64,000 nucleotides of DNA from Oerskovia paurometabola (GTDB lineage Bacteria > Actinomycetota > Actinomycetes > Actinomycetales > Cellulomonadaceae). The notes under the pieces were generated by a model. That model ran no database searches and had not been told where the DNA came from. It saw only the letters and a list, made by a program, of their open reading frames with translations. Location: NCBI RefSeq assembly GCF_016907365.1, contig NZ_JAFBBV010000001.1, forward strand, positions 2,294,001-2,358,000, read 5' to 3'. The translations under genes were made by a program, and so were the position numbers. Of this stretch, positions 25,633 to 64,000 are shown piece after piece; the first letter of the stretch is position 1; the number at the start of each line of letters is the position of its first letter.

Positions 25633-26301
25633 GTGGGCCCAGCCGTCGGTCAGTCCCTGCCCATCGCGGTGGGAGTCCTCATCAGCCCCATGCCCATCGT
25701 GGCGGTCGTGCTGATGCTCGTCAGCAGGAAGGCGAAGGCCAACGGCTTCTCGTTCCTGCTGGGGTGGATCGTGGGGATCGCGGCCCTCGGGTCGATCGTG
25801 CTGCTCGTGGCCGGCGCTGCCACGCCCGACGCGTCCGGGCCCCCGGCGTGGGCGAGCGTCGTCAAGATCGTCCTGGGCGTCCTGCTGCTGCTCCTCGCGG
25901 TCTCGCAGTGGCGCGGACGCCCGCGCGAGGGCGCGAGCCCCCAGCCGCCGAGGTGGATGAGCGCGATCGACGCCTTCACGCCCGTCAAGGCGTTCGGCCT
26001 CGCGGTCCTGCTCGGGGCGGTCAACCCCAAGAACCTGCTGCTCGTCGTGTCCGGCGCCGCGGCGATCGCCGCCGCGACGCCCGAGACGTCCGAGCAGCTC
26101 GGGGCCCTCGCGGTGTTCGTCGTCGTGGCGAGCCTGGGGGTCGCGGCCCCCGTCGCGATCTACCTGGCCATGGGATCCCGGGCAGCGACGCTGCTCGACG
26201 GGCTCAAGGCCTGGATGATCCAGAACAACGCCGTCATCATGGCCGTGCTGCTCCTGGTGCTCGGGGCCAAGATGATCGGTGACGGGATCACGGCGCTGTG
26301 A
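25633..26301 (+). CDS. GAP (Sap/LysE-like) family membrane protein
   Basis: A 222-aa integral membrane protein with about six helices, beginning with IAVGVLISPMPIVAVVLMLVS and including VKAFGLAVLLGAVNPKNLLLVV. These resemble the GAP/Sap proteins that export peptidoglycolipids in mycobacteria and the wider LysE fold. The GTG at 25633 follows AGAGGAAG. Its stop overlaps the start of the fur-like gene (GTGA), so expression is coupled to a metal regulator. That suggests a metal- or envelope-linked exporter, though the cargo is unknown. Confidence 0.75.
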   Translation: MGPAVGQSLPIAVGVLISPMPIVAVVLMLVSRKAKANGFSFLLGWIVGIAALGSIVLLVAGAATPDASGPPAWASVVKIVLGVLLLLLAVSQWRGRPREGASPQPPRWMSAIDAFTPVKAFGLAVLLGAVNPKNLLLVVSGAAAIAAATPETSEQLGALAVFVVVASLGVAAPVAIYLAMGSRAATLLDGLKAWMIQNNAVIMAVLLLVLGAKMIGDGITAL

Positions 26302-26762
26302 GCGAGGCGGCGGGCGCGGTGCCGCAGACCGACGAGCGGGTCCAGGCGGCGCTCGACCTCCTGCGGGCCGGCGGGCACCGTGTGACCGAGGCGCGCCGCG
26401 CCGTCCTGGAGGTCCTCGCGACCGAGGAGGGGCACCCGAGCGCCGACGAGCTGTGCACCCGGGTCCACGACCGGCACCCGGGCATCCACCGGGCCACGGT
26501 CTACCGCACGGTCGACCGGCTCACGACGCTGGGCGTGGTGACGCACGTGCACATCGGTGGTGGTGCGACGGCCTACCACCTGGCCCCGGGCGGACCCGTG
26601 CGCGAGCACCTGCACGCGATCTGCGACTCGTGCGGGCGGATCATCGACCTGCCGGGCGACCTGCTCGACCCCGTGACCACCTGGCTCTCGACCGAGGCAG
26701 GCTTCACGCTCGCCCCGGCGCACGTCGCGCTGTCCGGCACGTGCGCGGACTGCCGGGTGTGA
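26298..26762 (+). CDS. Fur family metalloregulator
   Basis: A 154-aa Fur/Zur-type repressor. The N-terminal winged helix includes GHRVTEARRAVLEVL and HRATVYRTVDRLTTLGVV (about residues 25-85). The dimer domain has EHLHAICDSCG and a C-terminal CADC, giving the two CxxC pairs of a structural zinc site. The first His/Glu set of the regulatory site lies around HVHIGGGATAYHL. Whether it senses zinc or iron cannot be decided from sequence. It is translationally coupled to the membrane protein upstream. Confidence 0.88.
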   Translation: MSEAAGAVPQTDERVQAALDLLRAGGHRVTEARRAVLEVLATEEGHPSADELCTRVHDRHPGIHRATVYRTVDRLTTLGVVTHVHIGGGATAYHLAPGGPVREHLHAICDSCGRIIDLPGDLLDPVTTWLSTEAGFTLAPAHVALSGTCADCRV

Positions 26763-26848
26763 AGGCCACCGCGGGGGGAGCGCGACGCCCGAGGGTCGGT
26801 CGACCGTGCTCGTCCGCGCGACCGGCGCGCGATCTCCCCGAAAAACCC

Positions 26849-26879
26849 TTGCCCTTGCCCGGGGGCAGGCCGCTACTGT
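26849..26879 (+). promoter_or_regulatory. Candidate promoter of the structured RNA/HNH transcript
   Basis: TTGCCC (26849-26854) is followed after 19 bp by TACTGT (26874-26879). The duplicated TTGCCC at 26855 gives a 13-bp spacer, so the first copy is the better -35. Transcription from about 26886 would leave a roughly 365-nt leader before the HNH start, far longer than any other leader in the window. Confidence 0.4.
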
Positions 26880-26884
26880 GGTGC

Positions 26885-27183
26885 ACGTCCGGTCAGGAGG
26901 CCGGTCGCCGGTCGGGGCAGCCCGCGCGGCGCTCGCTCCTGACCCGTTCTCATGAGGTGCCGCTCCGGCGGCCCGCACGAGCTGACGCACACGAGACCGC
27001 GCCACAGTGGTAGCGCGGCGAGCCAGGCACATGAACCTGGCCACGACGGGGACCCGTGGTGTGCGTGGAGGTTCCAAGTCGCCCGGACTGCAGTCGGGCG
27101 GCACCCCTGGAGAGGCATGTGCCAAGGACGGCGACGGGGCGCACCAGCGCCCCGTGGGGCGGGTTCGATTCCCGCCCTCTCCG
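26885..27183 (+). ncRNA. Structured RNA with two cloverleaf folds upstream of HNH gene
   Basis: The 489-nt gap between the Fur and HNH genes can fold extensively. A 9-bp helix (26891-26899 with 26936-26944) comes first. An 8-bp helix (26956-26963 with 27098-27105) then encloses cloverleaf A: acceptor-like 26985-26992 with 27059-27066, a D-arm-like hairpin 26997-27018 with loop CACAGTGGTA, a hairpin 27022-27041 with 8-nt loop CACATGAA, and a small hairpin 27042-27058. Cloverleaf B is 75 nt (27109-27183): acceptor GGAGAGG with CCTCTCC, a short D-like arm, an 8-bp hairpin capped by ACCA instead of an anticodon loop, and a consensus T-arm GCGGG-TTCGATT-CCCGC abutting the acceptor. There is no CCA end. 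I do not recognise a described RNA class. It could be a free RNA or the HNH leader. Confidence 0.6.
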
Positions 27184-27251
27184 CAGACGACGTGGGTGGC
27201 CCGCGGCGCCGAGGATCTCGGTACCGCGGGTCGCAGACAGGGAGTCGGTCG

Positions 27252-27713
27252 ATGAGCGAGGTCCTCATCTACAACCTGGGCGGCGGGCAGGTCCTGGGCC
27301 GTGTCTCGCTCGGGCACGCGATCCGTATGCTGCACCGCCGGGTCGCGGCCGTGCGGGAGGCCGTCGAGGGGGAGACCTTCGGCCCGTACCAGCGCCCGGT
27401 CTCGGTCGAGCTGGTGCGCTACGTCCACTCCCGCTGGGTCTACGAGCGCACGGGCCGCGTCCCGTACTCGCGCGCCGCGCTGCTGCGTCGTGACAAGCAC
27501 CGTTGCGGCTACTGCGGTCGCCCTGCGACGACCATGGACCACGTGGTGCCTCGGTGCCAGGGCGGGACCACGACCTGGCTCAACGCCGTGGCGGCGTGCG
27601 AGGCGTGCAACAGCGCCAAGGCGGGCCGGACTCCCCAGGAGGCCGGCATGACGTTGCGTTCGCGGCCCTTCGAGCCCGTGCTCGCCGACGTCTACCCGTA
27701 CGGGAAGCGCTGA
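27252..27713 (+). CDS. HNH endonuclease
   Basis: A 153-aa HNH protein. An N-terminal segment (about residues 1-75) with VLIYNLGGGQVLGRVSLGHA precedes the nuclease core: CGYCG, TTMDHVVPRCQGG, WLNAVAACEACNSAKAGRTP. The two CxxC pairs bind a structural zinc, and the DHV/N/H set forms the beta-beta-alpha-metal active site. All expected residues are present, so it should be active. The ATG at 27252 follows a GGGAG sequence. No recombinase, methylase or intron core is adjacent. Its only notable neighbour is the long structured region upstream, which suggests a functional link. Confidence 0.88.
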   Translation: MSEVLIYNLGGGQVLGRVSLGHAIRMLHRRVAAVREAVEGETFGPYQRPVSVELVRYVHSRWVYERTGRVPYSRAALLRRDKHRCGYCGRPATTMDHVVPRCQGGTTTWLNAVAACEACNSAKAGRTPQEAGMTLRSRPFEPVLADVYPYGKR

Positions 27714-63632: not shown

Positions 63633-64000
63633 AGGAGTCGCCTTTCGCGAAGTGTCTGGCGAGCGCTCCCGGTGGCGACTATCGCAGTCGCGCGATCGTG
63701 GGCTGCGGGGGAGCGCCCGGTACGGATGCTGCGTTCACGGGTCTCACCTCCTCGACGGTTCACGATCACTGCGACGCTAGCACGACACCTCCGCACGCGA
63801 CCAAGGGATTTTGCCCCGGATTCCTCGGTGACATTCTTCTGCGTTCCTCGAATCGCTCGGAGAAATCCGAGGACGGGAATCTCCCCGCACGGAGAATCGG
63901 TCGCTGCGTCACCCCGGCCGGGATCGAGCAGATTTGGAGAAGCGCACGCCCGCGTCCCTCAGTAGCGTCGAACCTGACGGCAGACACTCCACGAAGGGGA
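63633..64000. other. Intergenic tail of the window
   Basis: 368 nt with lower GC than the rest. TCCTCGG and CCGAGGA repeats near 63816-63875 can pair. A TAGCGT box (63963-63968) and a final AAGGGGA suggest the promoter and ribosome-binding site of a rightward gene that begins just past the window. I see no convincing gene in it. Confidence 0.4.

Follow-up and report, generated by a model that had tools for sequence, protein, structure and literature searches.

Why is the gene for a small HNH nuclease in Oerskovia paurometabola preceded by a leader of about 365 nucleotides (nt) that folds into two tRNA-like cloverleaves? We examined this locus within a stretch of 64,000 nt (hereafter the window; positions 2,294,001 to 2,358,000 of contig NZ_JAFBBV010000001.1), which comes from a 4.33-Mb genome in a single contig. 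On comparison with related sequences, both folds, which we call TLS1 and TLS2, are conserved in the genus and derive from tRNA arrays; the architecture of the promoter and the fold of TLS1 are likewise established at this level. Our favoured reading, to which we give somewhat less than an even chance, is that the locus is a reduced and fixed tRNA-array unit, in which TLS2, having lost its anticodon, serves RNase P and RNase Z as a processing mark that separates a stable RNA from the mRNA of the nuclease. The parts of the locus that carry this argument, with lengths in base pairs (bp) or amino acids (aa), are:

26842-26879, + strand: WhiB7/WblC-type promoter, with an A-tract (26842-26845), a gap of 3 bp, the -35 element TTGCCC (26849-26854), a 19-bp spacer and the -10 element TACTGT (26874-26879)
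26984-27103, + strand: TLS1 RNA, a cloverleaf-like fold (26986-27065) followed by a GACTGCAG hairpin (27081-27099)
27109-27185, + strand: TLS2, with its acceptor (27109-27115/27176-27182), a 9-bp arm with an ACCA loop (27134-27155), a T-arm (27159-27175) and the 3' end GCA
27252-27713, + strand: PLMP-HNH (IshB-like) nuclease gene, 153 aa, with PLMP-like residues 2-55 and the HNH domain from about residue 74

Two tRNA-like folds and their conservation

TLS1 has a closing stem of 7 bp, one fewer than the initial annotation of this DNA had given it; the D-arm-like loop that had been placed inside this stem was found there. The stem encloses a D-like arm with the loop CACAGTGGTA, an anticodon-like arm with the 8-nt loop CACATGAA, and a T-like arm of 4 bp that sits directly on it. 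These helices and the following hairpin are paired in every cell of an alignment of the Oerskovia sequences with three copies from tRNA arrays (described below). Specifically, 224/224 cells hold standard pairs, and 13 of the 28 pairs have changed on both sides (ten rows, eight of them distinct), with the qualification that the row of one array (L219) was aligned to the TLS1 model, so that its pairs lean towards the model. The structure was drawn by hand from the window and locus L230 before any pairs were counted. When the pairing partners were slid as a control, no more than three two-sided changes and no more than 50% paired cells were obtained. The covariation that had been proposed as a check is present as compensatory change in TLS1. 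We regard TLS1 as a candidate new RNA family with strong compensatory support; no Rfam family scored above threshold anywhere in the leader.

The second fold was largely recovered as first drawn. Its 7-bp acceptor (GGAGAGG, 27109-27115, with CCTCTCC, 27176-27182) adjoins the T-arm GCGGG-TTCGATT-CCCGC, and the whole measures 75 nt including the discriminator. The anticodon is indeed replaced by a stem with an ACCA loop, this stem being 9 bp long (27134-27142/27147-27155) and not 8 bp. On its + strand the window has a single perfect 7-bp acceptor adjoining a canonical T-arm, whereas 100 dinucleotide shuffles gave 0.01 on average. ARAGORN called 0 tRNA genes in the 64-kb window, and TLS2 was not among the 53 matches to RF00005 at E<=1 in its own genome. 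The best Rfam match of TLS2 was tRNA-Sec, below threshold (27.1 bits, E 0.0033, gathering score 47). For tmRNA, neither Rfam nor ARAGORN gave a match in the window.

The leader was present in all seven Oerskovia genomes compared (among them O. douganii, O. rustica, and O. enterophila), and the other six leaders were 88-98% identical to that of the window. Mean pairwise differences amounted to 2.4% in TLS1 (26990-27066), 3.9% in the linker, and 3.8% in TLS2; they rose to 9.4% for the 5' leader, to 17% for the promoter, to 17.6% for the spacer between TLS2 and the gene, and to 48% for the sequence upstream of the promoter. In the nuclease gene itself, fourfold sites differed by 32% and codon positions 1+2 by 3.8%. 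Since the divergence of the two folds matches that of codon positions 1+2, the leader RNA appears to be constrained about as tightly as the protein. In the seven genomes, 112/120 positions of TLS1 and 70/77 positions of TLS2 are invariant. The TLS2 acceptor and T-arm do not vary at all within the genus and so offer no covariation; in the 9-bp ACCA arm, one pair is compensated, another is G-U, and one species has a mismatch. The invariant block ends at 27185, directly after G-C-A, and beyond it 6/15 positions are invariant.

Two further hairpins frame the folds:

26891-26944, + strand: 5' leader hairpin, with arms GGTCAGGAG (26891-26899) and CTCCTGACC (26936-26944) and a variable interior
27201-27229, + strand: pre-gene hairpin, with two pairs changed on both sides and several broken in one or two species

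The arms of the 5' hairpin are paired in 7/7 Oerskovia genomes, with one G-U pair. Folding energies are supportive of structure in the leader and not decisive, and we treat them as weaker evidence. The full leader had a z-score of -3.67 (0/100 shuffles as stable). TLS2 alone had a z-score of -3.53, its minimum-energy fold dividing the 12 bp as 5+7 and not 7+5. For TLS1 alone the z-score was -1.96 (7/200 shuffles equally stable), with the T-like arm shifted in the predicted fold. Both cloverleaf-like folds are nonetheless real as described, with all TLS1 helices pairing and the TLS2 acceptor/T-arm geometry confirmed; a chance fold was rejected on the conservation and the compensatory changes.

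Relationship to tRNA arrays

Where did these folds come from? Searching 221 genomes of the family by blastn with positions 26880-27190, we recovered the complete leader from the seven Oerskovia genomes alone. Two other genomes also matched positions 26993-27102, with 80% identity and E-values of 1e-21 and 1e-20. Both of these TLS1 matches lie inside tRNA arrays as called by ARAGORN (L253, with 31 tRNA/tmRNA genes, and L254, with 26, in a single-contig genome), 6-10 kb upstream of a nuclease homologue. A third copy was found in L219 (76.2 bits, E 4.7e-14) with a nine-sequence covariance model that had been built without L219; this locus is a 39-tRNA array with a nuclease homologue after its final tRNA. 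In all three arrays TLS1 stands after tRNA-Ser(CGA), at a gap of 2, 33, and 381 nt (L219, L253, and L254, respectively), and before tRNA-Ala(UGC), with tRNA-Phe in between in L219; the tRNA-Ala of L253 was identified by likeness and not called by ARAGORN. Under strict filters, TLS1 was detected in 1/394 genomes of the class (its own genome only), and it was not found in plasmid arrays. TLS1 as an obligate partner of the nuclease was not supported.

At E<=0.001, 49/221 family genomes matched some part of the leader; apart from Oerskovia and the two arrays, all of these matches were short (<=51 bits). The best of them (51 bits) joins G194:C10:772817-772872 to window positions 26886-26938, in the region of the 5' hairpin. 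Four arrays carry a tmRNA of their own (L253 14794-15151, L254 16257-16614, L257 11124-11511, and L262 11645-12033), the tags of these tmRNAs being AKRDFALTA or ANATRSDLALAA.

TLS2 can be traced to the same arrays. In a pool of 184 tRNA entries, its closest relative was the odd tRNA-Ala(UGC) that follows TLS1 in L253 and L254; the L253 copy scored 26.0 and the L254 copy 22.0 or 21.5, depending on how it was cut, compared with 16.2 for the next different tRNA. The pool consisted of array tRNAs and of the genome's own tRNAs, the latter represented by only 20 stretches of its 52 tRNA matches, and it included two odd tRNA-Ala entries (L230 and L231) added by hand after the likeness had been noticed; the L254 copy as called by ARAGORN scored 21.5, still above the next tRNA. 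Relative to the array tRNA-Ala, TLS2 has kept the acceptor, the D-like stretch, and the T-arm, and its anticodon arm has been replaced. A3:U70 stands in place of G3:U70, and G73 in place of A73; G3:U70 and A73 are the features read by alanyl-tRNA synthetase. Because the anticodon, G3:U70, and A73 were lost while the acceptor and T-arm remained invariant, selection appears to have acted on the fold and not on decoding or alanylation. This suggests that array-derived pieces have been kept for a new job. TLS2 as a mimic of tRNA-Ser (from its GGAGAGG acceptor and G73) was rejected, as the array tRNA-Ala is closer, and recognition of the Ser type may still occur.

A stress-type promoter and an IshB-like nuclease

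The leader runs from a promoter that follows a gene of the Fur family:

26298-26762: Fur-family gene, the upstream neighbour of the promoter

The order is thus Fur-family gene, WhiB7-type promoter, leader, and an HNH open reading frame (ORF) of 153 aa. With the -10 element at 26874-26879, transcription is predicted to start near 26887, in agreement with the leader length of about 365 nt given at first. WblC promoters of Streptomyces are described in passages of PMC7157823 as GAAAWY placed 3 bp 5' of the -35 element (TKGMNN), followed by a 16-19-bp spacer and TANNNT. The layout at 26842-26879, with its A-tract 3 bp before the -35 element, agrees with this. A search pattern modelled on the published motif (PMC7157823, in part) and tuned on loci already inspected was matched 5' of 59 of 171 HNH loci (160 of them distinct), compared with 0.35 expected by shuffling, and in 0/78 downstream control stretches. 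In its strict form it was present at 6/7 loci of the genus. At the Kribbella locus L124 the strict form lies at 402, and the first tRNA on that strand follows at 977. Within the window it gave one match per strand, the second being at 63811 on the - strand. The genome encodes a WhiB7-like protein (L218, G000:C1:1498256-1498402) with GVWGGE and RGRGRP stretches, which we take to be marks of such proteins. By eye, a short upstream ORF and a terminator-like hairpin precede this gene.

The nuclease gene is intact, as had been noted (Pfam HNH 4e-11, HNH_5 3.5e-10). Structurally, its N-terminus matches the first ~53 residues of IscB/IsrB, and the protein also matches the HNH domains of Cas9/IscB. 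IshB is defined by PLMP plus HNH, and the protein looks IshB-like, its N-terminal domain being structurally similar to the PLMP domain of IscB/IsrB; it combines this PLMP-like N-terminus with an HNH domain of intact residues. C85, C88, D96, H97, N111, C116, C119, and N120 are invariant in 19/19 aligned rows and presumably include the catalytic and zinc residues of the domain. RuvC was not detected, HNH families being the only ones above the Pfam cut-off in the 153 aa. The name IshB occurs in part of the text of PMC12477157.

Homologues of the nuclease (E<=1e-20) were found in 122/221 family genomes. Among the 160 distinct loci, a tRNA called by ARAGORN lies within 600 nt upstream on the same strand in 25 and on the opposite strand in 0. 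These loci are best matches and not a random sample; a few have less than 1 kb of upstream sequence, at least L118/L061 and L149/L103 remain the same genomes, and at least two of the 25 represent one genome from two collections. In Cellulomonas, tRNA-Arg(ACG) lies 16-20 nt before the matched start (L010, L061-L063, L066, and L118), and further cases come from Kribbella, Asanoa, Kineosporia, C. cellasea, and others. No such upstream tRNA was seen in L158-L184 (27 loci, nearly all from Streptomyces or close kin). Of seven plasmid loci, six have 26-41 tRNA/tmRNA genes around or beside the homologue, and a Curtobacterium plasmid has none. Homologues thus lie in or next to L219, L253, L254, and six plasmid arrays, and the suspected link between tRNA-like RNA and HNH genes is borne out by homologues beside tRNA genes or in arrays.

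Several minor features were noted near these homologues. Short tRNA-like folds with no normal D-arm (64-67 nt, then ACC) stand upstream of the nuclease gene in a Cellulomonas group (L061 at about 1324-1390; also L059, L060, L062, L063, L066, L071, L080, and L104), some of them directly behind the promoter pattern. In L065, a tRNA-Arg-like sequence with a shortened anticodon loop (905-980), to which ARAGORN gives no identity, precedes the nuclease gene. Judging by these folds and L065, leader tRNAs may have been repurposed more than once. One Cellulomonas group (L059, L060, L069, L084, L086, and L101) has a small (M)VRIVN ORF just before the nuclease gene. Several draft Streptomyces homologues among L158-L184 lie within a few kb of a contig end; an rRNA operon or another repeat may be close by.

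What the leader may do

What, then, could an anticodon-less tRNA relic do in front of a nuclease gene? The acceptor and T-arm of a tRNA are what RNase P and RNase Z read. Because TLS2 has lost the features for decoding and alanylation and kept those for RNase P/Z, and because conservation ends at the tRNA end, we infer that TLS2 may act as a transcript cutter. In the simplest account, a tRNA array that recombined with the locus, or was itself reduced, would have left TLS1 and one tRNA behind a stress promoter. Under translation stress, WhiB7 would turn the transcript on; TLS2 would be recognised through its acceptor/T-arm by RNase P and RNase Z, with cleavage near 27108/27109 and 27183-27185, and a stable TLS1-containing RNA of ~220 nt would be freed from the nuclease mRNA. 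TLS2 would then punctuate the transcript as a tRNA does and be retained solely for processing. As TLS1 also occurs far from the gene, in arrays, its RNA probably has its own function in translation stress. Among the guesses of the initial annotation, an RNase P-processed leader would remain the best. A mobile unit, which had also been considered, did not hold up: the leader is fixed in 7/7 genomes of the genus, and both the leader and the L253 copy of TLS1 were without a match in the plasmid and phage collections, so that a plasmid or phage element was rejected.

Several observations weigh against the favoured reading. In the minimum-energy fold of the full leader, part of the TLS2 acceptor is paired with an upstream UCUC. 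The ACCA arm is maintained, though pure punctuation would need none, and the 3' end of TLS2 is G-C-A and not a full CCA. The strict promoter pattern was not found around the three TLS1-bearing arrays; a relaxed form occurred once (L254 4486, ~340 nt before the first tRNA). The term 'HNH' is absent from the main texts of two papers on WhiB7/WblC, one of them PMC7157823. Finally, Oerskovia flava (L109, which shares its contig with L008 and is placed in another genus by the genome collection) has a nuclease 81% identical to that of the window at a locus that lacks a TLS1/TLS2-type leader.

Several known systems resemble parts of this locus. Transcripts of mitochondria are punctuated by tRNA folds that separate RNAs; TLS2, a proposed cutting site, differs in that it lacks decoding features. 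An HNH gene marks tRNA arrays in mycobacteria (PMC5966550, PMC9569102, and PMC12803027, each in part), and the array units with embedded HNH on Mycobacterium chromosomes, plasmids, and phages resemble our locus in having HNH beside tRNA genes. Such a unit comprises 20 or more clustered tRNA genes (PMC5966550, in part), whereas the window, with none in 64 kb, has TLS1, one conserved anticodon-less relic, no recognisable tRNA, and a WhiB7-type promoter. The WhiB7/WblC regulon, which shares the promoter architecture, includes tRNA genes and aminoacyl-tRNA synthetases, with direct WblC control of six tRNA genes (passages of PMC7157823); the Oerskovia nuclease gene is a candidate member. Anabaena has a trn operon of 26 tRNAs that is induced under stress and repressed by TrcR (PMC10272220, in part); it too is an array induced by translation-targeting antibiotics, but consists of tRNA genes and belongs to a cyanobacterium with another regulator. 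In the literature searched, we found no prior description of the TLS1 RNA, of the conserved anticodon-less relic, or, for this nuclease family, of a WhiB7-type promoter or PLMP-like domain. The locus connects tRNA arrays with an IshB-like nuclease and with a stress promoter of WhiB7 type, and provides a worked case of a tRNA without decoding and charging features that is retained as a fold. As a one-gene, one-leader version in a cultured genus, it makes the role of the array HNH gene testable.

The main rival is control in cis, in which the tRNA-like leader would regulate the nuclease gene by attenuation or at translation and sense the state of tRNA, or a tRNA-binding enzyme, through TLS1/TLS2. 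We consider this possible but not probable. Cellulosimicrobium-type relatives (protein 77-83% identical) have the same kind of promoter and, in the place of TLS1/TLS2, a short ORF and a terminator-like hairpin (by eye); the fold of the full leader holds pairings that exclude the TLS2 acceptor and could form a switch, and the pre-gene hairpin has two compensated pairs. That hairpin is, however, disrupted in one species, and conservation drops (17.6% differences) in the spacer that leads from TLS2 to the start codon, in which translational control would be exerted. TLS1 also stands in arrays 6-10 kb from the nuclease gene, and therefore did not arise as its leader.

It is unlikely that the PLMP-HNH protein binds the leader RNA as a scaffold or guide, as omega RNA is bound upstream of IscB/IsrB. 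The protein resembles the IshB/IscB/IsrB (OMEGA) group in its PLMP-like N-terminus and in an HNH domain close to those of Cas9/IscB, but it has 153 aa, no RuvC, and no known omega RNA match. A scan with HEARO (omega RNA) gave no match at gathering threshold or at E<=10, and an unrelated RNA could still act in this way. Should this unlikely reading be true, IshB with an adopted array RNA would amount to a minimal RNA-associated HNH system that lacks RuvC and is induced under translation stress. Very doubtful to us is a decoy role, in which freed tRNA-like RNAs would shield the cell by engaging tRNA-cutting toxins, or enzymes that otherwise act on tRNA: TLS2 has kept the acceptor and T-arm without the anticodon, but it thereby lacks the anticodon loop, the target of many tRNA nucleases. 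Discussion of tRNA arrays as anti-defence elements in parts of PMC12803027 would fit such a role. That the folds are tRNA pseudogenes in decay, or formed by chance, and have no function today is scarcely credible, even with a TLS2 that is tRNA-like and no longer decodes, given the compensatory changes in TLS1 and a divergence 8-13 times below that of fourfold sites and similar to that of codon positions 1+2. An N-terminally extended protein reading through the leader (an ORF of 253 codons) was also rejected: insertions and deletions in the leader shift the frame, and the open frames across the seven genomes measure 256, 256, 256, 163, 225, 225, and 225.
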